Assembly (NCBI GenBank): GCA_947501845.1 | Contig: CANMXP010000008.1 | Span: 62,001 to 126,000 of the forward strand | DNA: 64,000 bases | Direction of reading: 5' to 3' | From: an uncultured Flavobacteriaceae bacterium | GTDB lineage: Bacteria > Bacteroidota > Bacteroidia > Flavobacteriales > Flavobacteriaceae | Shown: in pieces, positions 14,887-42,204 of the stretch | Layout of the letters: each line of letters opens with the position of its first letter | How positions within the stretch are numbered: position 1 is the stretch's first letter | Notes under the pieces: model-generated | The model's database searches: none | Seen by the model: the letters and a program-made list of their open reading frames with translations, nothing else | What the model was told of the DNA's origin: nothing | Position numbers and translations under genes: made by a program

Positions 14887-15078
14887 AAAAAAAACACTTG
14901 ATTTAATTCTTAGACAAAACAGGGGCTATTTTTATAACATAAAAACATTATCTAGCATATGCAAACATTATTCACCACATATATCTAATCATAACCTACA
15001 TCACTAAATAAATTAATTGCACCTTAATTAAAACTTAAAAACCAGTTGCAGGACAACGATCAGCAACTCCTTACAGGG

Positions 15079-15113: not shown

Positions 15114-15216
15114 ATAATTAACAGAATTGATTAATCTACAATTAATTAAGTGGTCTTTATAGTATTTTAGCAAAACTTAATGAATCATAATTAATGAATT
15201 TTAAACAAAAATAGAA

Positions 15217-16059: not shown

Positions 16060-16075
16060 TATTAAACCTCTAGCT

Positions 16076-17248: not shown

Positions 17249-17340
17249 TAATCTAAATTAACAGTAAACTTGATGTGAATTTTAATAGGCAAATAGTATT
17301 TCATCAACTGGCGTATCTTAATATACAACCTATAAAAAAC

Positions 17341-17505
17341 AAAGAGGCCGTCTTAAAAGTGTCATTCAGAACGTGGTGAAGAATCTCTTAAAAACTAAAC
17401 ATTTATCTCTCAGAATATTAAGATTTTTCGACTTTAGTTTATGCTGAGCGTAGTTGAAACACTTAAAATGAAAATTTATGAGCTTTTTAGACTGCCTCTT
17501 TTTAT
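17341..17505. repeat. MITE-like element with terminal inverted repeats, possibly also a terminator
   Basis: The left end AAAGAGGCCGTCTTAAAAG and the reverse complement of the right end, AAAGAGGCAGTCTAAAAAG, match at 17 of 19 positions. The interior holds GTCATTCAGAACGTGG and ATGCTGAGCGTAG, words typical of dispersed intergenic repeats in flavobacterial genomes. No coding frame is present. It lies between the convergent DUF4861 and sulfatase genes, and the GC-rich stem followed by T residues could end transcription from either side. Confidence 0.55.
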
Positions 17506-17532
17506 TAAAAATATTTTTTTTAATAAAAAGAA

Positions 17533-19199: not shown

Positions 19200-19652
19200 T
19201 TAAGCTTCAAGTTCTTTTTTCTTTGCTAGTAAGATATGATCACAAACTAAAACCAATTCATCTCGCTGATTAAATATTTCAACATGCTCATTAACATGTC
19301 CTAATTCTGGACGTTTAGATTCTTTCTTTTCACTAATAGTAACAACTACTCGAATTGTATCACCAATATATACTGGTTTTATAAAGCGCAATCGGTCATA
19401 TCCTTTAGAAAAAGCCTCAGGATTTATCTCTGTTGCTGTCATACCAATACCTACACTAAATGTAAGTGTTCCATGAGCAATTCGTTGCTTAAAAGGCTGT
19501 GTTTTGCACCACTCGGCATCCATATGGTGTGGAAAATAATCACCTGTATGTCCAGCATGAACAACAAAATCTGTTTCAGTAATCGTTCTTCCTAAAGTCT
19601 CTCTTTTACTACCTAATTCGTAATCCTCATAAAACCTTGATACTATATGCAT
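19200..19652 (-). CDS. MaoC-family hotdog dehydratase/hydratase
   Basis: A 150-residue single hotdog-fold protein of the MaoC family, whose members hydrate or dehydrate CoA thioesters. A longer reading to 19721 would overlap the KduD-like gene out of frame; ATG at 19652 lies 25 bp after that gene's stop and gives a normal family length. The catalytic motif is intact: [10 protein letters not shown] with Asp38 and His43, followed by [12 protein letters not shown]. There is no signal peptide. Its pairing with a KduD-like dehydrogenase and a sulfatase is unusual, since known uronate routes use no CoA ester. A second MaoC protein at 30088-30591 sits with two CoA-transferases, so the two may form a heteromer or act in sequence on a sugar-acid CoA ester. 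Confidence 0.85.
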
Positions 19653-19677
19653 GTCTTGATATTTTTTGTGATTAAAA

Positions 19678-20448
19678 TTACCTGCCCATCCATCCTCCGT
19701 CAACGAGTACAATAGTTCCATTCATGTAAGCTGCTGCTTCTGAAGCTAAAAATACTGTTGGTCCAGCAAAATCTTCAGCTTTTCCCCATCTTCCAGCTGG
19801 AATACGAGACAAAATAGAATTAGCTCTAGCCTGATCGTTTCGTAAAGCTTCTGTATTATCTGTTGAAATATAACCAGGAGCAATAGCATTTACATTAACG
19901 CCTTTTCCTGCCCATTCGTTAGAAAAAGCCATTGTTAATTGCCCTATAGCACCTTTACTTGCAGCATACCCAGGAACTGTTATTCCTCCTTGAAACGTTA
20001 ATAGTGATGCCGTAAATATTACTTTTCCAGAACCTCTTGACACCATATCTTTACCAATCTCTCTAGTTAAAATAAACTGAGCATTTTGGTTTACTTCAAT
20101 CACTTTATCCCACAAATCATCAGAATGCTCCACAGCTGGTGCTCTTAAAATAGTCCCCGCATTGTTTACTAAAATATCTATGATCGGGTTATCCTTTTTA
20201 ACTTCTGCTATAAAAGTATACAAGTTTTTTCTATCTGAAAAATCACATTGATAAGCTTTAAAACTTTTACCTAGAGCTTGAACTTCTTTTTCTACATCAC
20301 TACCTTCTAATTCTAACGAAGCCGACACCCCAATAATATTAGCCCCAGCCTCAGCTAAACCTACCGCCATAGCCTTTCCTATACCTCTTTTACATCCTGT
20401 TACTAAAGCTGTTTTGCCTTCTAAACTAAATTTGTTCAAAATACTCAT
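19678..20448 (-). CDS. kduD: KduD-like SDR (2-deoxy-D-gluconate 3-dehydrogenase)
   Basis: A 256-residue short-chain dehydrogenase. The Rossmann motif is TGCKRGIG (residues 18-25), LVNNAGT follows at about 93-99, and the catalytic residues are Ser148, Tyr161 and Lys165 (YAASK). The opening [14 protein letters not shown] and the closing VDGGWMGR are characteristic of KduD-type enzymes, which reduce 3-deoxy-hexodiulosonate to 2-keto-3-deoxygluconate with NAD(P)H. That role fits the KduI gene at 15217. However, this gene is followed directly by a MaoC hydratase, so a different hydroxy-acid substrate for the CoA-linked module is also possible. It is cytoplasmic. Confidence 0.86.
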
Positions 20449-23960: not shown

Positions 23961-26180
23961 TTAGCTCAGTTCTTTTAAAACCTCTTCTGTTGACTGATAT
24001 TGCTCCTTATACACCACCTTAATATCAATCGCATTCACTTCTTTTAGAAGACTATTAATTGCCTTGCAAAGTTTTTTATACGCTAAATTGATAAATTGTA
24101 GACATATCCCTGGCTCAAACCTAAGTTCTTCACTCGTATGACCGATAAAAGTATATACCCTAAAATTGGTCATTACATCATCAATCTCACTATTCCAAAT
24201 ATTAGGAATATCAACTTCTGTAAAATTATCTTGTTGCACCAAGTACACTTTTGGCGGAAAAGTCATTCGGTCTTCATACTCTAAAACTATTCCTTTAAGT
24301 GATGCTAAATTTTCCTTTTCAATAACGGGTACGATAAGCTTACTTAAAAGATCAACCATATTATCTATTATTTCATACATATAGGAATCATCTACACAAA
24401 ATCTCACCGATCTATTACCTATATTTATCATGTCAATTCGATACAGGTTCTCATCCCTATACATATATTCATAAGCATGCTTTGTTTCGTTTTTATATGG
24501 TGAAAAATACATGGTGTGAGAAACATTAGCTCTTACTATTTTCTTTTCTTCAACTACATAGTTTATTGATTCAAATCTTAAATCTGAGTATTTTAGACAC
24601 TCAACAGGCAAACCTTTATGATATTGGATTATGCTATACTCTTCCAAACTAGGTTCTTCCTTAACATGAAAATTATGGTGATGTAATATATTTTTCTGAT
24701 GTTCTAAAAAATCAATTCTCAATAAACTTCCATCATAAAATTCTTTAATCATATAAGGTTTCCCGTCTTTTATTTTATAATGAAAATAAGATTTAGCATC
24801 TGGAACATTTGTCTGCAATCTTTCCATCCAAGCAGAAGAAGGTCTATATTTTGTTAGTTCCCTACAAAAAGGCTCACTATAATACTCTTGAGATGTACTA
24901 TAAAAATTTTCCCCTTCTCGTTTTTTATTTTGTTCTAAAAGATGAGGGTAACGATCTATTTGTTCTTGAAGAATTTGTTTTACTTCAATAATTTCTTCAT
25001 CTTGATCAAACGTGCTTTGCACGCTTTGTTCTCTTTCATTTATTTCTTTTTCCCACTTAGCCCAGACTTTTTTGGGAAGTGTTTTTTCCATAAACATTTC
25101 TTCATTACAAGCACTATAATCCCTTGCTAAAACAAAATAATCTTTGGTCTGATCAATGCTTTCATTAAACATTGTGTCATTTTTTAGGGCTTTGGATATT
25201 TCAACATAAGCATCTATAACTTTGGTCTCTACTTCTTCAAAAGGAAGGTCTTCGATTAAGGCATTTGTTCTAGAATACAATGCATCGTCTTTATTAAAAT
25301 CAATCGAAAAAACACCATCTTCACTAAACAAAAGAAGATCTGGAGCATTAATCCAAATTAAAGGTCCATCACCATACTCCTCCAATATAGATTCCTTTTC
25401 CTGAACCGTTGCCATAGCAAAAGTTGGAGGAAAAGGGAATTGCATATTATATTCCATTAGAGACAAACAAATATCCTTTTCTTTTGGTGGATTAGATACA
25501 ATACCTTCTTTTATAACTTCAAAAATTGATTGCTTACACTTCTCCAACAAAGAATCAACTGATTCTTGAGCTAAATTTGCGTCAAAAATGTCAACGTCTA
25601 TTCCTTCGACAACAGAAACAATTTTATCCACTCCAGATTGATCAGCTTTTAAGTATATTTTACGCTGCTCAGAATACGAAGCATTACATTTTGAATCAAA
25701 ATACTGAATAGTAACATGTATTTCTACCTCCGATACATAAATAAAATTATGTTGTTCCCCGCCATACATCCCGAATTTTTTAAAACATTTTGGAGCACCT
25801 GAATCTAATTTTTCTAAATATTCCACATGCACAGCCTTCTTAGTATTTGGATTGCTATATATCTCATAGCGCCATGAGAGATTTTCTTCTGTTTTATAAA
25901 AGCTGTCATAGTAAGTTTCTCCTCCACAAAACAATCGAGAAAAAATTAATTTTCGATCTTTGAGCATGCACAGATACTGGTCTTGTCCTTCTAGCGACTC
26001 AAGAGACGTTTCGAACTTTAATTTATCCAATGGTATATTAGCCCTCTCAGAATGAAATGGTTCTAAACTAAAAAAACCATAAGCACTGTATAAATACATC
26101 GCTTTCTCTTTCTCTAAGTTTGTCAAGTATGTTTTATATCTATTCGGTAGGTCTTCAAAAATTTTTCGCAGTTCTTTCAT
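23961..26180 (-). CDS. Large unknown protein with internal duplication
   Basis: A 739-residue protein without signal peptide or membrane segments. I do not recognise the family. The two halves look related: MEYNMQFPFPPTFAMATVQE (about residues 256-275) parallels LEYEDRMTFPPKVYLVQQ (about 657-674), and each is preceded by a beta-rich segment of similar pattern (YLCMLKDRKLIFSRLF and YHYKIKDGKPYMIKEFY-like). A Lys/Glu-rich helical linker lies at about 385-425. The protein is acidic, and no catalytic motif stands out. Placement with DUF1963 and other orphan genes suggests an accessory or conflict-related island, which is inference. Confidence 0.65.
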   Translation of the reverse strand: MKELRKIFEDLPNRYKTYLTNLEKEKAMYLYSAYGFFSLEPFHSERANIPLDKLKFETSLESLEGQDQYLCMLKDRKLIFSRLFCGGETYYDSFYKTEENLSWRYEIYSNPNTKKAVHVEYLEKLDSGAPKCFKKFGMYGGEQHNFIYVSEVEIHVTIQYFDSKCNASYSEQRKIYLKADQSGVDKIVSVVEGIDVDIFDANLAQESVDSLLEKCKQSIFEVIKEGIVSNPPKEKDICLSLMEYNMQFPFPPTFAMATVQEKESILEEYGDGPLIWINAPDLLLFSEDGVFSIDFNKDDALYSRTNALIEDLPFEEVETKVIDAYVEISKALKNDTMFNESIDQTKDYFVLARDYSACNEEMFMEKTLPKKVWAKWEKEINEREQSVQSTFDQDEEIIEVKQILQEQIDRYPHLLEQNKKREGENFYSTSQEYYSEPFCRELTKYRPSSAWMERLQTNVPDAKSYFHYKIKDGKPYMIKEFYDGSLLRIDFLEHQKNILHHHNFHVKEEPSLEEYSIIQYHKGLPVECLKYSDLRFESINYVVEEKKIVRANVSHTMYFSPYKNETKHAYEYMYRDENLYRIDMINIGNRSVRFCVDDSYMYEIIDNMVDLLSKLIVPVIEKENLASLKGIVLEYEDRMTFPPKVYLVQQDNFTEVDIPNIWNSEIDDVMTNFRVYTFIGHTSEELRFEPGICLQFINLAYKKLCKAINSLLKEVNAIDIKVVYKEQYQSTEEVLKELS

Positions 26181-26381
26181 TTTATTTTTTATAGTTTATT
26201 CATTCCCAAACGATATTCAATCTCGTTTTTGAAATAAAACATAATAAAGAATACATAAAAATAAGTACAACTACCTTTTTACATCTCCCTGAATTCAGTG
26301 AAAATTTGCTTTCAAAAATTTTAAAATATTGCTACTACCAATTTAATTGATTCCTTTTTTTATTAGATTAGAAACTTCTTC

Positions 26382-27452
26382 TCATAAATTATAGTTTGGA
26401 GTAACACCTCCACCATTATTAGATTGATAAGCAGATTCAACGATAGCCATAGAATGCACGACATCTTCAACACTTGTTGGAAGCTTATCTGTAGAACCTT
26501 CAACATAACGCATTAAAGATGCCATAGTTCCTACAAAAGCATCAGGAAACCAAGATCCTTCTAATTCAACCTCAACCCATTTTGGATTCTCACCATCTTT
26601 CACAATACAATATTGAAATAAATCTGGTTTTCCATTAGGGTAATCCAACAATAACCCTATTCTAGCCTTAATAGCACCTTTAGTGCCTTCCCATTTCACA
26701 AAACTTTCTTGGTTCTTCTCTCCAAAATTGTGATCATGGTTCGTGTTGATAATGGCACGCATAGCATCGTTATAATCCATGATGGTTGTGGTTCGTGTTG
26801 AAGACATCTGTTTTGCAGGATTTCTCAATGTTTTTGAATACACTTTCTTTGGGTTTCCTAAAAACGAACGAATCAAATCAATGTAATGTATACTATGTTG
26901 TTGAATTTCCAAGCGTGGGTGGTTCACGACATTGGGAAAATACTCCCATGGAGTATAGGTTGTTAAACGGACTTCAAAATCGTATAACTCACCTATAACG
27001 CCTTGTTCAATTAAATATTTTGCTGCCATAACATACGGAGCAAAACGCATTTGACAATTGATAGCTGCTTTCAATTTTTTTCTTCTGCAAACTTCTAAAA
27101 TCTCTAAAGTCTGCTCATAATTATCGCCCATAGGTTTTTGAATCAATACTGCTGATTCGTCTGGCAACAACTCTAATGTAGCCACAAATTGGTTTGGCAT
27201 TAATGTTAAATCGAAAACTGCATTTTTGGGAGTCACGGCTACCATTTCCTTTACATTGTTATAAACATTAGGAATATGAAATGTTTTAGCTAAATCTACG
27301 GCTCTTTGTTTTGTTCTGTTAGTAATACCTTCAACTACAAAACCTACATTTTTATATGCTGGCAAATGGGCATCGCGAACAATACCCCCTGATCCAATAA
27401 TATATATTGGCCGTTTTTCTTTTGGTAATTCTGGTTTATAGGCTAATTCCAT
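26382..27452 (-). CDS. Gfo/Idh/MocA-family oxidoreductase
   Basis: A 356-residue NAD(P)-dependent sugar or cyclitol dehydrogenase family member. The N-terminal Rossmann motif is GSGGIVRDAHLPAY. The usual EKP motif that binds cofactor and substrate reads QKP (VLIQKPMG). The C-terminal domain carries the catalytic-type segment QQHSIHYIDL. There is no signal peptide. It is the last gene of the CoA-transferase operon, 2 bp after the solute-binding-protein homologue, so its substrate is probably the sugar or sugar acid handled by that module. Oxidation of a hydroxyl before or after CoA activation is plausible but unproven. A 201-bp gap (26181-26381) separates it from the island with nothing else visible. 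Confidence 0.88.
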   Translation of the reverse strand: MELAYKPELPKEKRPIYIIGSGGIVRDAHLPAYKNVGFVVEGITNRTKQRAVDLAKTFHIPNVYNNVKEMVAVTPKNAVFDLTLMPNQFVATLELLPDESAVLIQKPMGDNYEQTLEILEVCRRKKLKAAINCQMRFAPYVMAAKYLIEQGVIGELYDFEVRLTTYTPWEYFPNVVNHPRLEIQQHSIHYIDLIRSFLGNPKKVYSKTLRNPAKQMSSTRTTTIMDYNDAMRAIINTNHDHNFGEKNQESFVKWEGTKGAIKARIGLLLDYPNGKPDLFQYCIVKDGENPKWVEVELEGSWFPDAFVGTMASLMRYVEGSTDKLPTSVEDVVHSMAIVESAYQSNNGGGVTPNYNL

Positions 27453-27454
27453 AA

Positions 27455-28690
27455 TTAATTATTTTCAATATGATCTACTTCTTTTTGAGCACGGTCTAAA
27501 ATTGATTTAATATCTTTTGAGGTATTAATAACCTCTAAAACCAATTGATCAATAACATTAGCTATTTCCGACCAGTTACTTTTTCTGGGAAGTGATCGTG
27601 TGTCTTTATGTAAAGCTTCCAATTTGTGATAATAAGGAACTTTATTATTCACATCGGTATCATGCCAGGTAGATTTACGACAACCAATAGCGCCTTCTAG
27701 CGTTAGTAACTTATCATTTTCTTTATTCACTGCATACTTAATAAATTCATATGCTAAATCTTTATGTTGACTACCACTTCCAATAACATACATCCAATAG
27801 GCATTTAAAGAGACGCCTTCACCATTTGGTCCTGCAGGTATATTGGCAATATCGACTTTTCCTTTAACTTTCGAGCCTTCTATAAACTCACACATAGAAG
27901 CGAATCCAAACCAGTTTACCATCATCGCTAAGTGACCATTAGCAAACGCCATACCCGATTTTATAGAATCAAAATCTCTTGATTCTGGATGAATTGCTTT
28001 TGAATTTTGAAGCGCCTTTCTGTAAAATACCATGCCTTTAATAGCTTCTTCTGAATTTAATCTGATTTTTTTGTCATCATCAAATAATTCTCCGCCACGA
28101 GTCCATAATTGCAAGCAAAAGTCAAACACTGTATTATGACCATCTGGATACGCTGCAAAAGTAGTTCCATACAAATGATCTTCAGGTCTATTAAAAAACT
28201 CTGCAACTTCAATTAAATCATCCCAAGTTTTCGGAATCTCTAATGACTTTCCATGTTTTTTATAGAAAGCAACACTTTCTTCAACCGATTCAAACAGGTC
28301 TTTTCTATAAATTAAACATTCTGGTCCGTCATGAAATGGTAACCCTACTATTTTTTTATCAAATTCTTGTTTATAAAGTAAAGACCTTGACCATCCATCG
28401 GGAAAATCACTAGGAGCATCTTTATTAATATATGGTGTTAAATCTTCAATAGCGTTGGCAGTATAAGCTTCGGTAATCCAATCTGTATTTATTAAAGACA
28501 CATCCCAAGCTCCTTTTGCTAAGCCATTTTCTTTTAAAATAGTATCGTATAACGGGTGCAAATCTAAAGGAATCGCTTCCAACTCCAGACCACAACCTGT
28601 CTTCGCACAAAAAGATTCCCATATTTTATTTATTGATGATTCAAACGCATCAAATTTACGAACAGCAATTCTAAATTTATTTGATTTCAT
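27455..28690 (-). CDS. Solute-binding-protein homologue without signal peptide (SBP-1)
   Basis: A 411-residue protein with the fold pattern of ABC sugar-binding proteins (type 1/8 solute-binding family): DVSLINTDWITEAYTANAIEDLTPY, the hinge GLPFHDGPECLIYRKDLF, IPKTWDDLIEVAEFF, GTTFAAYPDGHN, and SGMAFANGHLAMMVNW. Unlike transport receptors it has no signal peptide; the start is [15 protein letters not shown]. The start is fixed by overlap with the upstream CoA-transferase stop (TGATG). No permease or ATPase is present nearby. It should therefore be cytosolic, as a carrier, sensor or enzyme, since a few binding-protein folds, such as MqnA/MqnD, are enzymes. A second such protein is at 31811. 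Confidence 0.82.
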   Translation of the reverse strand: MKSNKFRIAVRKFDAFESSINKIWESFCAKTGCGLELEAIPLDLHPLYDTILKENGLAKGAWDVSLINTDWITEAYTANAIEDLTPYINKDAPSDFPDGWSRSLLYKQEFDKKIVGLPFHDGPECLIYRKDLFESVEESVAFYKKHGKSLEIPKTWDDLIEVAEFFNRPEDHLYGTTFAAYPDGHNTVFDFCLQLWTRGGELFDDDKKIRLNSEEAIKGMVFYRKALQNSKAIHPESRDFDSIKSGMAFANGHLAMMVNWFGFASMCEFIEGSKVKGKVDIANIPAGPNGEGVSLNAYWMYVIGSGSQHKDLAYEFIKYAVNKENDKLLTLEGAIGCRKSTWHDTDVNNKVPYYHKLEALHKDTRSLPRKSNWSEIANVIDQLVLEVINTSKDIKSILDRAQKEVDHIENN

Positions 28691-29835
28691 CAGTCTTCAA
28701 TTAGCTCATTGACTATTGAATTTGTGTGCTCTCCCAATGCAGGACATCCTATGGGCGACGTTAAATATTCACCATCAATTTTAATAGGACAACGTGTGGT
28801 ATCGTACTCAAAACCATCACTCATTTGCACTCTTTGAATCATATCTAACACCTTAAATCCATCTGTAGCAAATAAGGTTTCCCAATCCATGATATTGGCA
28901 CACCAGATATCTGCAGGCTCTAATAATGACAACCATTTTTCAGTAGTACTTGTACTTAAATGATCCGCCAATATCTTCTTAATAGCATCCCTATCATCAA
29001 ACCAACTTGCTACTTCTTTATACTCCAGAAGTGCATCACAGCCTAACAACTCACCAATAAAAGGAATGGCCCCCATGGCCAAGGCTAAGTAGCCATTTTG
29101 AGTTTTATATACACCATAAGGTGCTCCTAAATAGGCATGAGCACTGTTACTTGCAGGACGAACTGTTGGTTGCCCCCCGTCTTGATAAAAAGTTGTAATA
29201 GATTCAAATTGAAAATCTATGATAGACTCTAACATGCTTACTGAAACTTTGGTCCCTTGGCCTGTTTTGGCTTTTTTAACCAAGGCCGCTAAAATGCCTT
29301 GTACCAAATGGGCTCCAGATAAAATATCTACAATTGCCAATCCAACTGGTGTTGGACCATTTCCTTCGATGCCATTTAACCAGGTTAAACCAGATAACGA
29401 CTGTACCAATAGGTCTTGCCCTGGTTTACTTCTCCAAGGACCTTCTGACCCATATCCTGAAATATCTCCGTAAACAATACTTGGATTTATTTTTTTAATG
29501 GTATCGTAATCAAACCCCAATCGCTCAATTACACCTGGTCTAAAATTGTGAACCAAAACATCTGCTTTTTCTATTAATTTTAAAACACGTTGTTTATCGA
29601 TGGTATTTTTTAAATCGGCTTGAAAACTTTCTTTATTTCTATTTATAGCCCTAAAAATAGAGGACTCTCCATTTATATTTACATTTGAAACGTACAACTG
29701 ACGACAAATATCTCCTGTTAACGGTCTTTCAACCTTAATAACTCTCGCTCCTAAATCTGCCAAGCGTAAAGTTGCAGATGGTGCTGATAAAAACTGGCTT
29801 AAATCTATAACTAATATATCTTCTAATGGTTTCAT
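28690..29835 (-). CDS. CaiB/BaiF-type (family III) CoA-transferase, copy 1
   Basis: A 381-residue family III CoA-transferase, normal length. It transfers CoA between carboxylic acids through an aspartyl-CoA intermediate. Seen are the opening [54 protein letters not shown], and the catalytic Asp141 in [12 protein letters not shown]. The C-terminal interlocking part has [15 protein letters not shown]. It is paralogous to the copy at 30607, with the same motif spacing. Its stop overlaps the start of SBP-1 by one base, so the two proteins are probably made in fixed ratio. Substrate is unknown; no thiolase or acyl-CoA dehydrogenase accompanies it, which argues against fatty acid or carnitine use. 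Confidence 0.9.
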
Positions 29836-29840
29836 TTCAA

Positions 29841-30071
29841 CTAATTGTGAATTAAGGAATATAATTCGCTAGGTTCTTTATGCCTTTGAACTATGTTATT
29901 GTCTATCAACTTTAAAAAATCGATCCGTAGCTCGTTCAGAGATCTCGCTCCTATGCCTATTTTTGCTTTTACCTCATCGGTATCTTTATTCTTTTGTTTA
30001 TTTCTACACACAATGGTAGGTAAAACGAACACTACCGATTCTATTATTTTTGTTCTCATTTGTAACATATA
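29841..30071 (-). CDS. Small hypothetical protein, doubtful
   Basis: The 252-bp gap between the MaoC and CoA-transferase genes has an open frame. It runs up to 30140, overlapping MaoC, but an ATG at 30071 would give 76 residues ([14 protein letters not shown], then [17 protein letters not shown]). There is a hydrophobic N-terminal part and a basic middle. I do not recognise it. It might be the remnant of a larger gene, since all other gaps in this operon are short, or it might be chance. Confidence 0.25.
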
Positions 30072-30087
30072 AAATGCTTCTAAAACC

Positions 30088-30591
30088 TCATTTTTTATAA
30101 TTTTCAGGGTCTCGGTATTTAACTGTCTGCAAGTGTTCACAATACAATACTAATTCTCCTGGATGTTTATAGACTTCATAACTTACAGTAATCAAACCCA
30201 TTTCATTATATTTTGGAGTTTTATTTAAATGGGTTCGCACTGTATAAATTGTGTCTCCTATAAATACTGGTTTTATAAATCGAAGCTTATCATAGCCATA
30301 ACTAAATGTATTTACATTATTGTTAGCCATCAAGCCTAGCCCCAAACTAAAGACCATGGCTCCTGCAACCAGACGCTTTCCGAACAGACCATCTTCTTCA
30401 GCAAAAACTTGGTCACCAACATAGGGATGCATATCAAGTACTAAACCATTGAACATCATGGCTTCTCCTTCTGAAATTGTTCTTCTAATAGAACGATCCT
30501 TTTGTCCAATTTTAAAATCTTCATACATCCAGTTTTCCGTGTTATAGACAGGAATATTTTTGTGCTGCTCTATAGGTGTTTTTTCTGGCAT
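30088..30591 (-). CDS. MaoC-family hotdog protein with altered catalytic motif
   Basis: A 167-residue MaoC-like protein, cytoplasmic, between the two CoA-transferase genes (15 bp after copy 2). It shares [20 protein letters not shown] with the MaoC protein at 19200 ([18 protein letters not shown]), so they are close relatives. The catalytic motif DxxPxHxD reads DMHPYVGD here (Asp53, Val58), so the expected His is replaced by Val, although a His occurs at position 55. Either His55 serves, or this copy is non-catalytic and pairs with the intact one at 19200. Similar proteins hydrate mesaconyl-CoA and related CoA esters. Confidence 0.83.
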
Positions 30592-30606
30592 AATTTCCTT
30601 GTTGTT

Positions 30607-31749
30607 CTATAGATTAAATTCCTTAATAAGATCTTCTGTATGTTGACCAACTCTTGGAGCAGGTTTAGAAGCAAATAACCGTTCATCATTTAGTCGTATT
30701 GGACAACGCGTTGTATGAACTTCTTCACCTGAAAGTAATGGTAATTTTTGATCCATTTTTAAGACGTTATATGCTTCGTGATTTAATAATGTTTTATAAT
30801 CAAAAACATCGGAACACCAAATACCCGCAGGTTCAAGTATTGCTAACCAATCATTGGTGCTCTTATGAATTAAGAAATCCCTTAAAATATCCATGATTTC
30901 ATCTCGTTGACTAAACCAGGATTCTGAATCTGTAAATATATCCAATGCTTCACAACCAATAACTTTGCCTAGTTTTAATAATGATCCCATGGCAATTGAG
31001 ATGTAACCACCTTGTGTTTTATACACACCATATGGTGCTCCTAAGTAAGCATGGGCTGCTCCCTGTTTTGCTCTTACAGGTTTTTTATTGCCATCATTTA
31101 AATACGTTGTAATAACTTCAAACTGAAAATCTAGAGTAGATTCTAACAAACTAACTTCCACCAATGATCCTTTATTTGTTTTTATCCGTTTTAAAAGGCT
31201 TGCCAAAATACCATGGGCCAAATGTGTCCCTGTTATAATATCTGAAACTGCTGCCCCAACAGGTACTGGGGCGTCATTTTTATTTCCCGTTAAATTTGCA
31301 AAACCAGACATAGACTGAATCAACAAATCTTGTCCTGGTTTTTTGGCCCAAGGGCCTTCTGTTCCATATCCTGTAACAGTTGCATAAACTAATTGAGGGT
31401 TAATTTCTTGAACTGTTTGATAATCTAAGCCTATTTTTTCCATAACTCCTGGTCGGAAATTATGAGTCATTACATCTGCTTGACCAATTAACTTTTTGAC
31501 ACGTGCTAAATCATCCGCATCTTTTAAATTCGCCGCATAAGAATCTTTATTTCTATTTACAGTATGAAAAACCAAACTGCTTCCGTCTAAAAATAAATTC
31601 TTCAAGGCTATTTGCCTGCCAGCTTCTCCATGACCTGGTCTTTCAATTTTTATAACTCTGGCTCCTAAATCTGCTAATTTTAATCCTGCAGACGGACCAG
31701 CCATAAACTGTGCAAATTCTAAAACTAATATCCCCTCTAATGGTTTCAT
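30607..31749 (-). CDS. CaiB/BaiF-type (family III) CoA-transferase, copy 2
   Basis: A 380-residue paralogue of the CoA-transferase at 28690, alike throughout ([51 protein letters not shown]). The catalytic Asp is Asp141 in [12 protein letters not shown]. Both copies are full length with intact motifs, so neither is obviously degraded; they may form a heterodimer, since this family has interlocked dimers, or treat two different acids. The gene follows the SBP-2 gene by 61 bp and precedes MaoC by 15 bp. Confidence 0.9.
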
Positions 31750-31810
31750 CTGTTTATATTTATTTTATTGATTCAATCAGACCTACCTACCAATAAGTAA
31801 GTGTCATATT

Positions 31811-32965
31811 TTAAATATCTAGCGATTTTTTATATAGAACATTCATTTGATCAAGCAATACTTTTTCATCACCTCCGTGCATTAAGTAGTCTCTAATTGG
31901 TGCTCCAGCCCTATCTTGAAAGTATATGTGTCCATTATAACGTGGACGTAAAAATGCACGATCCAAACCAGGCAATGTATTCTTAAAGAAATTTGAGGTC
32001 AAATTATTAGTATAGGCATCTATCCATGCTTTTCTATGCCCTGGCTGCCCGCCTCCATCAAAGAATACTGTTTTTTGGCAAGCTTCCGAGCCTACATACT
32101 CAACATATTTCATAACAGTTTCTATTTCTTTTACTTCTGCTGAAACAGCTAACCCAGTGCCTCCCAAAGTCGTAATTGCTTTTCCAAAACCTTTAATATC
32201 TACCATATCATGAAAATGTAACAGCTTGCGCGCATAACCTTGTCTACTATAGTTTGTATAACCGTAAGCCCATGGACAATAAGCATATTTATCTGTAAGT
32301 GTCATGGCTTCATATACCTGAATAGGATTCCAATCGTAAATTTTAGGATCCATTTCAACGGCCAATGCTCGTAATAATTGCAATGCTTTTATACCTATTG
32401 CCTCACTTACAACATGATCTTGCGATACACATACATCTTCTCCTATAGTACAACACATCATATAAAAATTCATCAATGTATCTTGCGGGATTCCAGGCAT
32501 GATTACCAATCCTTTTTTAGCTAAAGCTAATAAATCATCATATGTTTCTGGAAGGTCGATTCCTTTATCTGCAAGAATATCTGGTCTGCTTGAAGCTACT
32601 GGTGTAGCAGCATCAACAGCTAACGCCCACTGATGACCACTTGAAGAATAGCTTTCATGAGAACGTCCAACGGTATTTTCGGCTAAATCGTCCATAAATG
32701 ATTCAGGTAAATACTCGTCTAGTGGCAGAATCACGTTATTTTTACCTGCAAAACCCGCCCACGGATGATCAATAATAAGCAGATCATACCTTTTTGCTAA
32801 TTCGTTTATCGGCTCGTCTGCAAAAGCTTGTAACGACCTTTTTTCCCATGTAATATCAACGTTTGGGTGTAATTCTGAAAAACGTTGTGCTGTGGCTACC
32901 ACAGAAGTAAAACCTCTACTATGATTCCACGTAATGCCTTTTAATTGTACTCTTTTTGTACTCAT
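31811..32965 (-). CDS. Solute-binding-protein homologue without signal peptide (SBP-2)
   Basis: A 384-residue protein of the extracellular solute-binding family (type 1) by pattern: KGITWNHSRGFTSVVATAQRF, FSELHPNVDITWEKRSL, DLLIIDHPWAG, YDDLLALAKKGL, CPWAYGYTNYS, and GGTGLAVSAEVKE. It begins MSTKRVQLKG with no hydrophobic signal, and no alternative upstream start gives one, so it should stay in the cytoplasm. It is only distantly related to SBP-1. A permease of the ABC type is absent; the only transporter in the operon is the RhaT-like symporter 23 bp upstream. Role unknown: substrate channelling, sensing or catalysis are the options. Confidence 0.8.
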   Translation of the reverse strand: MSTKRVQLKGITWNHSRGFTSVVATAQRFSELHPNVDITWEKRSLQAFADEPINELAKRYDLLIIDHPWAGFAGKNNVILPLDEYLPESFMDDLAENTVGRSHESYSSSGHQWALAVDAATPVASSRPDILADKGIDLPETYDDLLALAKKGLVIMPGIPQDTLMNFYMMCCTIGEDVCVSQDHVVSEAIGIKALQLLRALAVEMDPKIYDWNPIQVYEAMTLTDKYAYCPWAYGYTNYSRQGYARKLLHFHDMVDIKGFGKAITTLGGTGLAVSAEVKEIETVMKYVEYVGSEACQKTVFFDGGGQPGHRKAWIDAYTNNLTSNFFKNTLPGLDRAFLRPRYNGHIYFQDRAGAPIRDYLMHGGDEKVLLDQMNVLYKKSLDI

Positions 32966-32988
32966 TCTATATGATATAATGATTTTAT

Positions 32989-34062
32989 TTAATGACCTGT
33001 TGCGATGTCTGTTCCTAGTTTACTTCCATACGCCATAATTATAAATGAAACAACCAACACTATAAGTGCAAGTACTAAGGTAAAATACGTGCGTTTTGTT
33101 ACTTGTTTCCATTCTTTCATAACAATACCAACGATATAGCTAAAAAATATAAGCATAGACATATGCAATACCCAACTTGCAAACTTGTAGGCTCCCATTT
33201 GTACATGTCCTATACCGTAGAAGAAAAATTGACCGTACCACAAGGCACCACTAAGAATCGACATACCAAAGTTTAGAACTAAGCTCTTTTTACCTACACC
33301 TTTAACATCAACAATTTCCTTTAGTGTATTATTTTTTATCCCTACAACGGTAAACCAAATAAAGTTAGTAATAAAGGCACCTCCAGTAGATAATATTAAA
33401 TTAGCATTACCTTCAAAATTACCTGCACCATATGTTCTTCCAGCTATTTCTGCAACTGGTGCTCCAACTTCTAATGAAATTCCAAAAACGGCAGACAAAA
33501 CACCAGCAATTAAAGTAAGGGTCAAGCCCTTTTTCATATTAAAAGTTAAAGGCTCGTCTCCATTAATATTATTATTTTTTAAGTCCTTTTCTTTCCTATA
33601 ACCTGCGACACCACATATTATAATACCAACAAGCGCCAAACCCATTCCAAAAAAAATAACATACCCTCCAGGAGCATTAAACTTTTGCAATAATTCACCG
33701 TGCATTAGTAAAGGGACAATGGTTCCCAAAATTGCCGAGATGCCGATAGATATGGTATAGGTTAAGGAATATCCTATATGTTTAATTGCAAACCCAAAAC
33801 ACATCCCTCCAAAACCATATACAGCTCCCAATAATGTTGCATTTATTAAAACTTCAGATGATGCATCCGTGAAAACGCTCATGAGATTAGGTACCGTTAG
33901 GAAACCTATTAAAAAAGGGAAAATAAACCAGGCAAAAGAAGCTTGCACGATCCAATAGGAATCCCAAGACCATTTTTTTACTTTTTGAAAAGGTACATAA
34001 CAGGTCGATGCAGCTACACCTCCAATTGCATGAATTAGAGTTCCTATTAATGGATTTGCCAT
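32989..34062 (-). CDS. RhaT-type sugar/proton symporter
   Basis: A 357-residue inner-membrane protein with about ten hydrophobic segments, the pattern and length of the L-rhamnose/H+ symporter RhaT. Typical parts are NPLIGTLIHAIGGVAASTCYVPFQKVKKWSWD-like N-terminus, GAVYGFGGMCFGFAIKHIGYSLTYT, and the central GISLEVGAPVAEIA. It is the first gene of the operon, 117 bp from the divergent IclR gene start. RhaT relatives also occur in red-algal polysaccharide loci, where they may import other deoxy- or L-sugars, so L-rhamnose is not certain. No rhamnose isomerase or kinase is seen here. Confidence 0.88.
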   Translation of the reverse strand: MANPLIGTLIHAIGGVAASTCYVPFQKVKKWSWDSYWIVQASFAWFIFPFLIGFLTVPNLMSVFTDASSEVLINATLLGAVYGFGGMCFGFAIKHIGYSLTYTISIGISAILGTIVPLLMHGELLQKFNAPGGYVIFFGMGLALVGIIICGVAGYRKEKDLKNNNINGDEPLTFNMKKGLTLTLIAGVLSAVFGISLEVGAPVAEIAGRTYGAGNFEGNANLILSTGGAFITNFIWFTVVGIKNNTLKEIVDVKGVGKKSLVLNFGMSILSGALWYGQFFFYGIGHVQMGAYKFASWVLHMSMLIFFSYIVGIVMKEWKQVTKRTYFTLVLALIVLVVSFIIMAYGSKLGTDIATGH

Positions 34063-34090
34063 AATTATTTAGTTACAGATTAATTTAAAA

Positions 34091-34125
34091 ATTTCATATA
34101 CAAAAATATATTTTATATATGAAAT
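34091..34125. promoter_or_regulatory. 10-bp perfect inverted repeat between rhaT-like and iclR genes
   Basis: ATTTCATATA (34091-34100) and TATATGAAAT (34116-34125) are exact reverse complements separated by 15 bp, in the middle of the 116-bp divergent gap. The position suits an operator for the adjacent IclR regulator controlling both the operon and its own gene. Confidence 0.5.
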
Positions 34126-34178
34126 ACACAACAACCAAATAGTTTTTATTAATATTGCATTATAGATAGTTTTAGTAA

Positions 34179-34949
34179 ATGACCAAAACAACCTCTACAA
34201 AGTATAACGCTCCTGCATTAGACAAGGGACTTGATATTATTGAGTATTTGTCTCAAGAAGGGATTCCCTTAACCCAAGCTGAAATTGCACAAGGTATAGA
34301 TAGGACCCCTAGTGAAATATACAGAATGCTAATATGTTTGGAGGAACGCGGTTATTTAATAAGAGGGGCAAATGCAGGTAAATATAGATTGTCATTAAAA
34401 ATGTATAACCTATCGCATACGCATACTCCTTTTGATGAGTTGAAACGTGTCGCTCGATATCCTATGCAACATTTATCTGAAATTACCAGACAGTCCTGTC
34501 ATTTAAGCATTATGAATAATGATCAATTATTGATAATCTATCAAATGAGGAGTCCTAGCCCAGTATCACTATCTATTGAAGAAGGCACGCATTTCCCATT
34601 ATCAATGACTACTTCTGGCAGCATATTACTATCCATGTTTTCTAAAGAAAAGAGGCTGTCGGTTTTGTCGAGAGACAAACATTTTAAAACATGGAACAAA
34701 AAACAAAAAGAGGCGCTTTTATCGACTATTGAAGACATAGAAAAAGAGGGCTATCGATGCTCTAAAAGTAAATTAACTGGTGGTGTTACCGATATTGCTG
34801 TTCCATTAGGCTCTAAAAACTCTAATATAAATGCCGTATTAGCGCTTTCTCTGTTTTCTTCTAGTTTAGAAGAGGAGGCAAATATTGACACTATAATTGA
34901 TGCTCTTAAAAAAGCGCAACTTGAAATAAATCAGTTAATTGGAAGCTGA
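34179..34949 (+). CDS. IclR-family transcriptional regulator
   Basis: A 256-residue IclR regulator. The winged helix-turn-helix occupies about residues 13-65 (LDIIEYLSQEGIPLTQAEIA, TPSEIYRMLICLEERGYL), followed by YRLSLKMYNLSH and the effector-binding domain (about 75-250) with TRQSCHLSIMN and a GVTDIAVPLGS segment. IclR proteins commonly control sugar-acid and aromatic catabolism and bind a pathway intermediate. The gene is divergent from the RhaT/SBP/CoA-transferase operon and is its most likely regulator, with the inverted repeat in the gap as a candidate site. Confidence 0.93.
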   Translation: MTKTTSTKYNAPALDKGLDIIEYLSQEGIPLTQAEIAQGIDRTPSEIYRMLICLEERGYLIRGANAGKYRLSLKMYNLSHTHTPFDELKRVARYPMQHLSEITRQSCHLSIMNNDQLLIIYQMRSPSPVSLSIEEGTHFPLSMTTSGSILLSMFSKEKRLSVLSRDKHFKTWNKKQKEALLSTIEDIEKEGYRCSKSKLTGGVTDIAVPLGSKNSNINAVLALSLFSSSLEEEANIDTIIDALKKAQLEINQLIGS

Positions 34950-35103
34950 CCTTAATTTATTTTCTTAAAAACCATATGCTCTTCTATTTAAAACAAATGT
35001 TACTCCCATAACGTTAACTCTTCTTTAACTTTATTTTTTGAATGTTCAATGCTTTTTATTTAAAAAGTATCTTGTTGTTTAAACCTCAAATCAAAATTAT
35101 AAA

Positions 35104-38581: not shown

Positions 38582-39838
38582 CTACTCCGCAAGTAAATTA
38601 GCTGGTTTAAAAAGCACTGAAGGATCTGCTAATTTCGATTTATCAATTTTATTATTGCCTTTTATAAACTTTGTTCCTAAAACATAAGCCTTTGCATTAT
38701 TAATGGCATCTACTGCCAGCAAAGTATCATCTTTAAAGTACCATATGGAAAATTTAACACCTTCACTTTCTTCTTCTCTGATTAAGATATTATTATAACC
38801 TTCTGACAGACCAACCATTTGTAGTTTAATATCATATTGATCTGACCAAAACCAAGGCATGGTGTTATAAACAGGATGCTTTTCGCAAATTGCAGCAGCG
38901 GCCACTTTAGCCTGATCTACAGCATTTTGCACAGATTCTAATCGTACGTGGCGTTTGTAATGCGGATTATAGTGAAATGTACAGTCACCTATAGCGTAAA
39001 TATCTTTATCATTTGTACAAGCCGTCTCATCCACAGCAATACCGTTTTCTATATGCAAGCCTGCATCTTTAGCTAATTCTAAATTAACTCGAATACCAAC
39101 ACCCACTACAATAATATCTGCTTCAAATTTAGAACCATCTTCGCAAGTAACTATATTGACGCCAGCAGTATTATTTATGGCAACAACATTTTTGTTAGTT
39201 AGCACATCTACTCCATTTTGAGTATGCAGTTGCATAAAGAAGTTTGACATTTCTGGAGCAGTAACACGTGCTAAAATACGTTCTTCTCGTTCTAAAACAG
39301 TTACAGTACCTCCCAGTTTTTTTAAAGAAGCGGCTGTTTCTAAACCAATATAACCACCTCCTATAATTATAATGCGCTTATTCGAACTCGCATGAAATGC
39401 ATGACGAATATTCTCAACATCTCCTGCCGTACGTAAAGGATATGTATTAGCGGCTGTATCTATTCCTGGAATTGGCGGTATAATAGGACGTGCCCCAGTA
39501 GCAATAACTAGTTTATCGTAGTTCTGAACTCTACCATCACTTAAATAAAGTATTTTATCTTCTCGGTTTATTGAACTAATTGAAACACCTAAATTTAAAC
39601 TTATGTTCTCTTTTTCGTAGCTTTCGGCAGATTTCAATAAGTTTTTTTCAATACCATCTTCACTGGTCAAATATGCTTTTGAAAGTGGTGGCCTATGATA
39701 AGGGAGTACAGGATCTTTGTCAAAAAGAACGATATCACCTTCCCAACCTTCTTTGCGTAATGAAAATGCAAAGTTTACACCCGCATGACTTGCACCAATG
39801 ACGGCACAAACACGCTCTTTAGTATGATTATTTGACAT
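38582..39838 (-). CDS. Ferredoxin reductase (putidaredoxin-reductase type) for the P450
   Basis: A 418-residue FAD- and NAD(P)H-dependent reductase. Seen are the first nucleotide-binding motif GASHAGVNFAFSLRKEGW, LPYHRPPLSK, the second motif GGGYIGLETAASLKKLGG, and the flavin segment YAIGDC. The length and order match reductases that serve [2Fe-2S] ferredoxins of class I P450 systems. It follows the ferredoxin gene by 19 bp. It would pass electrons from NAD(P)H to the ferredoxin at 39858, which reduces the P450 at 40220. The protein lacks a signal and is cytoplasmic, so the demethylated sugar must first be imported. Confidence 0.92.
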   Translation of the reverse strand: MSNNHTKERVCAVIGASHAGVNFAFSLRKEGWEGDIVLFDKDPVLPYHRPPLSKAYLTSEDGIEKNLLKSAESYEKENISLNLGVSISSINREDKILYLSDGRVQNYDKLVIATGARPIIPPIPGIDTAANTYPLRTAGDVENIRHAFHASSNKRIIIIGGGYIGLETAASLKKLGGTVTVLEREERILARVTAPEMSNFFMQLHTQNGVDVLTNKNVVAINNTAGVNIVTCEDGSKFEADIIVVGVGIRVNLELAKDAGLHIENGIAVDETACTNDKDIYAIGDCTFHYNPHYKRHVRLESVQNAVDQAKVAAAAICEKHPVYNTMPWFWSDQYDIKLQMVGLSEGYNNILIREEESEGVKFSIWYFKDDTLLAVDAINNAKAYVLGTKFIKGNNKIDKSKLADPSVLFKPANLLAE

Positions 39839-39857
39839 TAAATATACTTTAACGGAT

Positions 39858-40172
39858 CTAGTCTGATTCTGCTACCTGTAGTACTAAACCATCAAGCGCT
39901 TCACTAATCTCAAGCTGGCAGCACAAACGACTACGCTCATTTGAATAATCGTTTAAATCCAGCATATCTTCTTCTATTTCACTAGCTGCACCTGTTTTTT
40001 CAATATGCTCTGGTGCTACATGTACATGACACGTTGCACACGAGCAAACCCCTCCGCAATCACCATCAATTCCTGGCACACTATTATCTACTGCTAATTG
40101 CATGACTGAACCTGAAGTACCTTCTAATGTTATTGTTTTATCATCTGTTGTTATGAAAGTTATTTTTGCCAT
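39858..40172 (-). CDS. [2Fe-2S] ferredoxin, adrenodoxin type
   Basis: A 104-residue ferredoxin of the adrenodoxin/putidaredoxin class. The cluster ligands are the Cys residues in CGGVCSCATCHVH and the distal LCCQL. It lies between the P450 and reductase genes, as expected of a three-part electron chain. Small gaps (47 bp to the P450, 19 bp to the reductase) indicate one transcript. Confidence 0.94.
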   Translation of the reverse strand: MAKITFITTDDKTITLEGTSGSVMQLAVDNSVPGIDGDCGGVCSCATCHVHVAPEHIEKTGAASEIEEDMLDLNDYSNERSRLCCQLEISEALDGLVLQVAESD

Positions 40173-40219
40173 AATTTTAATTTTAAATGTGTTCTGTAAA
40201 ATAAGGTTTTTTAAGCGGA

Positions 40220-41377
40220 TTACCTGCCATTAAATTTAACGGTTAGATTGTCATAACCAACCTTACGTTTAAATTCACCTAGTTCTTCAATGTTTTCTTT
40301 GTAATCTACAATATTGATCGATTTAACTTTTTTAGCCAATGTTGTTAATAGAATATTCATAATCTGACGGGCATGTGTTGCTCCCAAACAGTTATGGTGA
40401 CTAAAGCCAAAAGCTACATGTGGATTGATTTTTCGATCTATAACAATATCATTTGGGTTTTCGAACACTTTGGCATCTCGATTGGCCGATGCCCAACATA
40501 ATGAAATGCGGGTATCTTCTTTTATAGCATGCTCACACACTTGAGTGTCTTCTGTTACCACACGCCCCATCTGTGTTAATGGCGAAAAATAACGAATCAA
40601 TTCTTCAACAGCCTTACCTGTAATATCTGGTTCGTTTAGCAACCTATCTAACGATTCTGGATGTTCGGCAAAGTATGCTATAGAATTTGTAACCGCATTA
40701 ATAACTGTATCACGACCACCTGCAAAGGTTAAAATCATCACGCCCTTAACTTCTTCACGTGTTAACTTTTTACCGTTTACCGTTGCCGCTAAAAGCATGG
40801 AATATAAATCGTTACCAGGACTTTCAATTGCCTTAGTTATTCTTTCATCTATATAATCATAAAGAATATTAGCCTTGTCTCCATCCAATGCTTCGCCTTC
40901 ACTTCTAAATACATGGGTTCCCCAGGAAATCCAGGTTTCAGACTCCTCGTAAGGTGTATTTAATAATAAGGTTAATGCACGTGATTGTAAACGCAATGAA
41001 AACCCTTCTACAACCTCAACAGAATCTTCAGTAAGCACCTCATCAACAATATCATTAATTTGTTGGGTTAAAACTGCTTTATAATCTGCTTCTAATGGGC
41101 GTTTAAACCAAGGCTCTACCAAGGCACGAAAATCTTTGTGTTCTGGTGGGTCTACTTCAAATGGTATTTGACGTGTATCACGAATATTAACTTCCGAAGG
41201 TATGACAATACGTCCTGGAGCTGCTCCAGATTGAAATGTTTTCCAGTTATGTGCACATTTACGTAAATCTTTTAAACCTAAGATCATTGTAACTGGATCA
41301 TTTTGGTCATCCATTTCGCCATATCCTTTATTAACTCTGGCTTCTTCAAACGGATCTGGAAGTGCACTCTTTTTCAT
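40220..41377 (-). CDS. Cytochrome P450, probable 6-O-methyl-D-galactose demethylase
   Basis: A 385-residue soluble P450. The I-helix oxygen motif is FAGGRDT, the ExxR motif is in EELIRYFSP, and the haem thiolate is Cys330 in AFGFSHHNCLG. Start and length are normal for a bacterial class I P450. The ferredoxin/reductase partners next to it, and the sulfatase, GH16 and GH2 setting, match the P450 systems from marine Flavobacteriia (including Zobellia) known to remove the methyl group of 6-O-methyl-D-galactose from porphyran, giving galactose and formaldehyde. That substrate is inferred from context; the active-site residues do not prove it. Confidence 0.92.
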   Translation of the reverse strand: MKKSALPDPFEEARVNKGYGEMDDQNDPVTMILGLKDLRKCAHNWKTFQSGAAPGRIVIPSEVNIRDTRQIPFEVDPPEHKDFRALVEPWFKRPLEADYKAVLTQQINDIVDEVLTEDSVEVVEGFSLRLQSRALTLLLNTPYEESETWISWGTHVFRSEGEALDGDKANILYDYIDERITKAIESPGNDLYSMLLAATVNGKKLTREEVKGVMILTFAGGRDTVINAVTNSIAYFAEHPESLDRLLNEPDITGKAVEELIRYFSPLTQMGRVVTEDTQVCEHAIKEDTRISLCWASANRDAKVFENPNDIVIDRKINPHVAFGFSHHNCLGATHARQIMNILLTTLAKKVKSINIVDYKENIEELGEFKRKVGYDNLTVKFNGR

Positions 41378-41390
41378 GTGTTTATATTTA

Positions 41391-42191
41391 TTATTTTAAA
41401 ATTCCATTAAAAAACGCAATGGTTTCCTTAATATGTGTTTCCCAGTAAATCCACTCATGTTTTCCTGGATTTTCTTTGTAAGTATGGGCTATATTCAAAT
41501 CACTTAATTGTTGATGAAGCTTTCTATTTCCTTCAATGAGTTCGTCTTCTTCACCACAATCGAATCTAAAAGGTGGCAAGCTATTTTTATGTTTTAATAC
41601 CGTAGCATAAACAGATTCGTTTTCTGCTTCTTCCTGACTGTAAACATCAAGTGGTTCCTCAACAAATAACGCCATCTCATCAACAACTGTGATAGATGAC
41701 AACCCAGACACACCTGAAAATTTATTATGGTATTTGATTCCTAAACGCAAGGCTCCGAAACCTCCCATAGACAAACCCGCAATAAATAATTTAGATTGGT
41801 TACTCGCCTGAGGAATTAATTCTGCAACGGCATTAGGCACATCTTCAACAATCCACTTTTCGAAATCGGAATTTTTATGAGGAAGGTAAGCACTACCATC
41901 TCCCCATAAGCCATCTGAGGGCATAGCTATAATCATAGGAGCTATATCACCATTTTCTATCCATGATTCCATTTTTAAATGAATCCCTGTTTTTTGAGAC
42001 CAAATCCAGTGACTTCCGTATACACCATGCAATAAAATGACAATAGGCAAATCGGTTAAATCGTCTCCTGGCGGAACAAAAACCGTTATATCGCCTCGAT
42101 TTTTTAAATGTTTACTTTTTACAGTAATGTGCCGCAAATGATTGGCTTCAAAACGAGGGTCTGATATTTCGGTTGTCTTAAATTTTGACAT
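41391..42191 (-). CDS. Esterase D-superfamily hydrolase (putative S-formylglutathione hydrolase-like)
   Basis: A 266-residue alpha/beta hydrolase. An upstream ATG at 42257 lies inside the neighbouring gene, so ATG at 42191 (MSKFKTTEI), 13 bp after that gene's stop, is chosen. The nucleophile elbow is GLSMGGFG and the His is in GKHEW. The HGVYGSHWIW segment forms the oxyanion region. Relatives hydrolyse S-formylglutathione or carbohydrate esters. Sitting between a thiol-type alcohol dehydrogenase and the P450, which would release formaldehyde, a role in formaldehyde detoxification is likely, although removal of an ester group from a sugar is an alternative. Confidence 0.85.
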   Translation of the reverse strand: MSKFKTTEISDPRFEANHLRHITVKSKHLKNRGDITVFVPPGDDLTDLPIVILLHGVYGSHWIWSQKTGIHLKMESWIENGDIAPMIIAMPSDGLWGDGSAYLPHKNSDFEKWIVEDVPNAVAELIPQASNQSKLFIAGLSMGGFGALRLGIKYHNKFSGVSGLSSITVVDEMALFVEEPLDVYSQEEAENESVYATVLKHKNSLPPFRFDCGEEDELIEGNRKLHQQLSDLNIAHTYKENPGKHEWIYWETHIKETIAFFNGILK

Positions 42192-42204
42192 GAATTTTAT
42201 CTTT

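Follow-up and report, generated by a model that had tools for sequence, protein, structure and literature searches.

A gene module at positions 26382-34949 of a 64,000-nucleotide stretch from an uncultured Flavobacteriaceae bacterium (assembly GCA_947501845.1, contig CANMXP010000008.1, positions 62,001 to 126,000), the whole of which we call the window (G000:C8:62001-126000 in our numbering; host genome 5.37 Mb), joins a sugar/proton symporter to paired coenzyme A (CoA)-transferases, a MaoC protein, a Gfo/Idh/MocA oxidoreductase and two homologues of sugar-binding proteins. The module suggests an undescribed breakdown route for algal or plant L-sugars in which CoA is attached to the oxidised sugar. 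We tentatively favour, with rather less than even confidence, L-sugar catabolism that proceeds through the CoA ester of an oxidised sugar acid. A description of the module was not found among the literature matches listed, with subscription papers and preprints outside the scope of that search, and its novelty is therefore provisional.

The module comprises seven minus-strand genes, listed here in the order of their transcription (26382-34062), and a divergent regulator:

32989-34062, minus strand: RhaT-family sugar/proton symporter, 357 amino acids (aa) (PF06379, 184.3 bits)
31811-32965, minus strand: binding protein A, 384 aa, maltose-binding-protein fold, no signal peptide (PF01547, 41.6 bits)
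30607-31749, minus strand: CaiB-A, family III CoA-transferase, 380 aa (PF02515, 319.3 bits)
30088-30591, minus strand: MaoC1, MaoC-like with an altered motif (PF01575, 49.4 bits)
28690-29835, minus strand: CaiB-B, family III CoA-transferase, 381 aa (PF02515, 314.1 bits)
27455-28690, minus strand: binding protein B, 411 aa, maltose-binding-protein fold, no signal peptide (PF01547, 100.2 bits)
26382-27452, minus strand: Gfo/Idh/MocA oxidoreductase, 356 aa (PF01408, 40.8 bits)
34179-34949, plus strand: divergent IclR-family regulator (PF01614, 83 bits; PF09339, 44.5 bits)

An initial annotation had assigned these eight genes to the families Gfo/Idh/MocA, SBP_bac_1 (twice), CoA_transf_3 (twice), MaoC, RhaT and IclR, and every assignment scored above its Pfam cut-off. 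The same search agreed with the annotation that no ABC (ATP-binding cassette) permease, thiolase or acyl-CoA dehydrogenase is found among the eight, and an acyl-CoA synthetase was likewise not found there. The hallmarks of ABC sugar uptake are missing, the module having neither an exported binding protein nor a permease or ATPase. Because the gaps between the seven minus-strand genes are short (-1, 2, 15, 23 and 61 bases), with the exception of 252 bases between MaoC1 and CaiB-B, they look like an operon. A site scan of 26100-35100 (24 promoter-like sites versus a shuffled mean of 37.1; nine terminator-like sites versus 4.7) was not used. NCBIfam RhaT models match the symporter below their cut-offs, and the oxidoreductase reaches none of the curated NCBIfam activity cut-offs; its Lys106, His189 and Asp192 recur in 93% or more of the 63 homologues compared, and we take Lys106 and His189 to be catalytic from characterised relatives.

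The two CoA-transferases are 51% identical to each other, and both are members of family III (CaiB/BaiF) by full-length PF02515 match and the presence of Asp170. This residue, which presumably corresponds to the catalytic Asp169 of formyl-CoA transferase, is kept in at least 93% of homologues (n = 88 for CaiB-A, n = 94 for CaiB-B). No NCBIfam model for a named activity (oxalate, succinate-glutarate, mesaconate or carnitine CoA-transferase) reached its cut-off, the best scoring 229.2 bits versus 750. The host genome encodes three CoA_transf_3 proteins, two of them in the operon, and CaiB-A and CaiB-B are fused in five Hymenobacter loci (L085, L097, L098, L101, L128).

Binding protein A begins with MSTKRVQLKGITWNHSRGF and retains a conserved LKGxxWxHxRG region near its N-terminus. 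Its AlphaFold2 model (per-residue confidence, pLDDT, 92.1; predicted TM score, pTM, 0.90) finds MalE3 (6dtq) as best Foldseek match, with a TM score of 0.83 at 14% identity. The model of binding protein B, built from 11 sequences, has three weak segments (pLDDT 79.6, pTM 0.79), and its best match is 5iai (TM score 0.74). That both proteins lack signal peptides, as initially noted, extends to their relatives: a crude hydrophobicity test picked out one of 111 A homologues and none of 59 B homologues as having a signal-like stretch, the sole positive (L108) having a frame extended upstream of the conserved start, and scored two of three ABC-linked control binding proteins as positive, with the third just under threshold. 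In one flavobacterial locus (L056, 12855-15134), binding protein B and the Gfo/Idh/MocA oxidoreductase are fused in a single 759-aa frame. This fusion leads us to propose that each cytosolic binding protein delivers substrate to its partner enzyme, a role that binding protein A would, by analogy, play for the CaiB pair.

The initial annotation had made its reading depend on these families occurring together elsewhere, and they do, the set being no random grouping: the CaiB pair and a near full-length A homologue are present in the same 16 of 249 family genomes and in no others (46–100% identity for A; E of 1e-90 or better for the CaiB pair). Binding protein A as such is found in 23 of the 249; the seven additional genomes carry distant relatives (34–36%) or, in G240, a 75-residue fragment, all of them in loci of the third form described below. 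Outside the family, tblastn returned 149 plasmid records, 90 of them from Sinorhizobium, and the genome collection holds at least 582 confirmed relatives. The best 80 of these 582, which lean to close ones, are by title mostly Bacteroidota, with Gammaproteobacteria, the alphaproteobacterial Hirschia and one metagenome-assembled genome of an Acidobacteriota. Together with 26 family-genome stretches (own locus excluded), and after removal of four duplicates (L070, L073, L078, L099), they yield 102 distinct A loci.

In 96 of these 102 loci a CaiB gene lies within four open reading frames (ORFs) of binding protein A on the same strand. Labelling the neighbours by BLAST against a hand-made reference set, with a simple ORF caller that misframed some GC-rich genes, separated two main forms. 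Form I, to which the window belongs (n = 55), has CaiB in 55 loci, Gfo in 55, binding protein B in 54 and MaoC in 48, and neither a crotonase-type hydratase nor an aldehyde dehydrogenase in any. Form II (n = 27) has both of the latter throughout and lacks binding protein B, Gfo and MaoC altogether. As the forms are defined by these very genes, the informative part is the lack of mixed loci only. Both Glu114 and Glu135 of the form II hydratase, which we take to be catalytic from characterised relatives, are conserved. RhaT or FucP lies within nine ORFs in 54 of the 55 form I loci, and the 55th (L055) has RhaT at 65%. A Zn-dependent dehydrogenase is equally near in seven form I loci, all with RhaT and six also with a short-chain dehydrogenase/reductase (SDR) of the window's type. 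IclR genes lie within ten ORFs in 28/55 form I and 17/27 form II loci. In two further loci the hydratase occurs with no dehydrogenase labelled, and nine are unclassified, among them the short contigs L111 and L149 as well as L056, which is form I by eye with its fused gene.

A third form (n = 9; L057-L064, L066) has a seven-bladed lactonase-like protein alongside a relative of binding protein A that reaches 34–39% identity with its nearest reference or is a fragment. Of the nine loci, five have CaiB within four ORFs, six a crotonase-type hydratase and seven an RraA-type protein. These loci also encode small proteins of ~136–154 aa, one of which (L063, 7004-7468) was tested and had no Pfam match.

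The frequent proximity of IclR, and the possibility that cytosolic binding proteins act as ligand sensors, could suit a different role altogether, with the CaiB/binding-protein set being a sensor or a detoxification side branch and the main route lying elsewhere. We regard this as very improbable, given that conserved catalytic residues and gene fusions point to enzymes and that an importer accompanies nearly every form I locus.

The preferred reading, dehydration of a sugar acid as its CoA ester, calls for a hydratase, and here the operon's own MaoC protein is unusual. MaoC1 belongs to the family by match, but a D-x-H-P-Y-V motif replaces G-D-x-x-P-x-H and the histidine at the usual position is absent. 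In a tblastn search of loci L030 onwards, MaoC1 outscored MaoC2 at a single gene, in Roseibium (L037, 8262-8828; 71%), which lies immediately 5' of that locus's CaiB and binding protein A genes; a further row at 39% (L129) was a MaoC2-type gene. The CaiB-A/CaiB-B gap in same-genus loci (17 bases in L041, 52 in L042) leaves no room for MaoC1. Because of the Roseibium relative and these short gaps, MaoC1 looks from sequence comparison like a later addition to the operon. The 252-base gap next to it (29836-30087) contains a minus-strand open frame of ~75 codons, possibly a trace of MaoC1's arrival.

The initial annotation had further suggested that a MaoC/KduD-like pair some distance away completes the module:

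19200-19721, minus strand: MaoC2, MaoC-type hydratase with an intact G-D-x-x-P-x-H motif (PF01575, 81 bits)
19678-20448, minus strand: KduD-like SDR (kduD model, 318.8 bits versus a cut-off of 338.85)

MaoC2 carries what we take to be the Asp/His motif of MaoC hydratases. It shares this motif with 51 of 55 ORFs bearing the MaoC2-type label, the remaining four being antisense ORFs, and, as the alignment shows, with 4ffu, a solved structure labelled 'oxidase' (presumably from Sinorhizobium meliloti). Relatives of MaoC2 (89–90%) lie closely 3' of the operon's Gfo gene in L045, L046 and L072, and in L045 and L072 86% relatives of the SDR adjoin the operon's MaoC and Zn-dehydrogenase, so that relatives of the pair (86–90%) directly follow Gfo and the Zn-dehydrogenase there. 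A caveat concerns the SDR, since an 80% relative adjoins KduI in L159 and the window also has KduI, at 15217. These in-operon relatives of SDR and MaoC2, together with the Zn-dehydrogenase, make the pair a probable module member displaced by ~6 kb, in keeping with the suggestion.

Gene content, co-inheritance, conserved catalytic residues, signal-less binding proteins and two kinds of natural fusion support the route outlined here, of which we infer every reaction, substrate and binding-protein partner role. RhaT would import a free L-hexose or 6-deoxy-L-hexose, which the Gfo/Idh/MocA oxidoreductase, with binding protein B as substrate holder, would oxidise to a lactone or acid. A CaiB-A/CaiB-B heterodimer partnered by binding protein A would place CoA onto the acid, and MaoC2, perhaps helped by MaoC1, would catalyse beta-elimination of the 3-hydroxyl to give the CoA ester of a 2-keto-3-deoxy acid. 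The CaiB pair would then transfer the CoA of this product onto a new molecule of the substrate acid, a starter acyl-CoA priming the cycle, and the KduD-like SDR, joined in relatives by a Zn-dependent dehydrogenase or an RraA-type aldolase, would process the product. Since CoA would pass from product to substrate, neither ATP nor a thiolase would be needed. Such a CoA-recycling dehydration fits the lack of loci mixing MaoC and crotonase-type genes although the cores are alike in other respects, the absence of a ligase or thiolase and the pairing of the CoA-transferases; the mutual exclusion of MaoC and crotonase-type (ECH) proteins fits two unrelated hydratase folds doing the same step. In its sharpest form, with L-aldonates dehydrated as CoA esters by the CaiB pair plus hydratase and ABC-fold binding proteins recruited as cytosolic substrate-presenting subunits of CoA-transferase and dehydrogenase, the proposal strikes us as possible and rather doubtful.

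The aldehyde dehydrogenases of form II invite another placement of the CoA step, further along the route: they would form L-lactate or L-glycerate, and this C3 product would be converted to its CoA ester and then dehydrated or isomerised. The enzyme of one form II locus (L047) is closest to the PRK10090 model (490.9 bits versus a cut-off of 500), which we take to be linked to AldA, with D-glyceraldehyde dehydrogenase next (426.8 versus 760), and RraA-type proteins occur near 2/55 form I, 1/27 form II and 7/9 third-form loci. However, no form I locus (0/55) has an aldehyde dehydrogenase label while both CaiBs are kept, L-lactate offers no 3-hydroxyl to a MaoC protein, and the constant partners are sugar importers and sugar oxidoreductases; we therefore consider a C3 substrate unlikely.

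Several observations weigh against dehydration of the sugar acid itself as a CoA ester. A fusion of binding protein and CaiB was not found in the loci examined. No MaoC label lies within ten ORFs in 7 of the 55 form I loci, including the closest relatives L041-L044, as judged on stretches of ~20 kb (L089 ends at a contig end, and the L041 stretch ends 4.7 kb behind Gfo, short of MaoC2's place in the window). As many as 41 family genomes have the hydrolase of the oxidative L-fucose pathway without L-fuconate dehydratase, and form I is present in only six of them. One form I genome (G162) does have L-fuconate dehydratase, and two others (G061, G159) have FucI above cut-off, that is, a CoA-free route for L-fucose-like sugars. 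In alphaproteobacterial clusters, finally, the CaiB/binding-protein pair is accompanied by two enolase-type enzymes, one of them annotated as L-fuconate dehydratase, so that there the CoA route is no plain substitute. The idea that form I replaces a missing L-fuconate dehydratase was set aside as only suggestive over the 249 genomes: the 13 form I family genomes have the hydrolase in seven cases and the dehydratase in one, compared with 69 and 29 among all 249, a 39% match in G115 not being counted as dehydratase.

For the window, L-fucose was likewise abandoned as the substrate once a separate L-fucose locus (L068) was recognised in the genome, running from 55519 to 64000 and on to ~129400 of G000:C8. 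It encodes two proteins of glycoside hydrolase (GH) family 29, an AraC regulator, Zn-dehydrogenase, altronate-dehydratase-type and mannitol-dehydrogenase-type proteins, a fuconolactonase-like protein (271.6 bits versus a cut-off of 400) and, further on and by reading alone, an SDR and two proteins resembling a FucP permease and a mutarotase. The best match to L-fuconate dehydratase in the host genome reaches 61.3 bits at 30% identity, accepted copies (57–67%) scoring 560–668 bits, and FucI had no match there, which leaves the isomerase route incomplete. In G127, an L-fucose dehydrogenase (353.9 bits; cut-off 300) and FucP (358.7; cut-off 280.4) stand beside the module with lactonase-like and diketo-acid-hydrolase-like proteins, both below cut-off, while matches to L-fuconate dehydratase there reach 25 bits at best.

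The neighbourhoods differ from organism to organism. Form I adjoins GH78-type and GH106 rhamnosidases in Pedobacter (L112) and a GH78-type enzyme in Olivibacter (L142); GH29 fucosidases lie near the module in Tamlana fucoidanivorans, Seonamhaeicola algicola and Persicobacter; and an agarase-type protein is near the form II locus L047. In a Mucilaginibacter form I locus (L144, 17677-21059), a RuBisCO-like protein, an SBD_N/NBD_C sugar kinase and an Asp/Glu racemase family protein adjoin, a set that we take to resemble apionate catabolism genes. With rhamnosidases, fucosidases, agar-type genes or this RuBisCO-like/kinase set next to it depending on the organism, the core may act on more than one sugar. 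The initial proposal that an imported sugar is oxidised, activated with CoA and dehydrated thus stands as far as the parts fit these steps, whereas its simple reading suffers from a core found beside differing sugar genes. The neighbours point to L-sugars as the substrate class, without pinpointing a single sugar.

The rhamnosidases beside form I (L112, L142) and the L144 set with its RuBisCO-like protein and two-domain kinase could instead suggest a branched or carboxylated rare sugar acid that needs CoA activation, such as aceric acid of rhamnogalacturonan II or apionate. However, marine agar degraders possess this core too, and it also adjoins GH29 fucosidase genes, settings in which such sugars are unexpected; we judge this identity of the substrate to be improbable.

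In the window itself, a cytochrome P450, ferredoxin, reductase, esterase and alcohol dehydrogenase at 38582-43323 look, by reading alone, like the set for demethylation of 6-O-methyl-D-galactose from porphyran, as described in PMC10033563. With L-fucose having its own locus, L-galactose from porphyran is our best guess for the window's substrate, held with low confidence. The locus at 474-19161 encodes six sulfatases, two GH28, a GH2, KduI, DUF4861 and a seven-bladed lactonase-like protein, and at 51089-51943 an alpha-acetolactate decarboxylase family protein has a sulfatase and a Kelch-repeat protein as unusual neighbours.

Relatives of the P450 set (at least 50% identity) lie near 4/27 form II loci, 1/55 form I loci and one unclassified locus, a difference between the forms (Fisher 0.038; six versus one and 0.0045 with weak labels included, both uncorrected and ignoring relatedness) that could suit form II as a route for L-3,6-anhydrogalactose, CoA activation taking the place of the cycloisomerase. 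The names of several form II hosts refer to agar use, L047 has its agarase-type protein, GH16 labels occur in 8/27 versus 1/55 loci (those in form II all weak, 23–33% identity), and an aldehyde dehydrogenase would suit a sugar unable to close to a pyranose. The association of form II with red-algal genes was nevertheless weaker on checking than at first count, and we downgraded anhydrogalactose to a quite improbable substrate because Microbulbifer thermotolerans carries a cycloisomerase relative (517 bits to 5xd7) next to its form II locus, and because a Zobellia galactanivorans cluster for this sugar is reported in PMC5613140 to resemble the known pathway.

If L-sugar catabolism through CoA esters is the correct reading, marine and soil bacteria process sugar acids in this manner, a transporter fold has been turned into an enzyme subunit, and many orphan binding proteins and CoA-transferases of Bacteroidota and Proteobacteria gain a function. 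The module supplies concrete targets for tests of L-galactose, L-rhamnose and L-fucose use.

The closest parallel in chemistry is carnitine dehydration by the CoA-transferase CaiB and the crotonase-type hydratase CaiD. The module shares with it a family III CoA-transferase, a hydratase and, putatively, CoA recycling without net ATP, but differs in its two CaiB paralogues, a MaoC or other hydratase, a sugar importer, an oxidoreductase and cytosolic binding proteins. Succinate-hydroxymethylglutarate CoA-transferase (9br6) and benzylsuccinate CoA-transferase (9fn0) belong to the same sequence family, the latter likewise having two non-identical subunits, whereas the context of the module is sugar catabolism. 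The oxidative L-fucose pathway (dehydrogenase, lactonase, dehydratase, diketo-acid hydrolase) has partners in common with the module in G127 and in the alphaproteobacterial clusters; as described it has, to our knowledge, no CoA step, and the window's genome keeps its own separate L-fucose locus. DddD, which acts on dimethylsulfoniopropionate, consists of two fused CaiB domains and in this resembles the Hymenobacter CaiB-A/CaiB-B fusion, the module differing by its surrounding sugar genes. With ABC sugar-binding proteins of the MalE/SmoF type, binding proteins A and B share their fold, yet they are set apart by the lack of signal peptide and permease and by a fixed genetic link to CaiB or a dehydrogenase.

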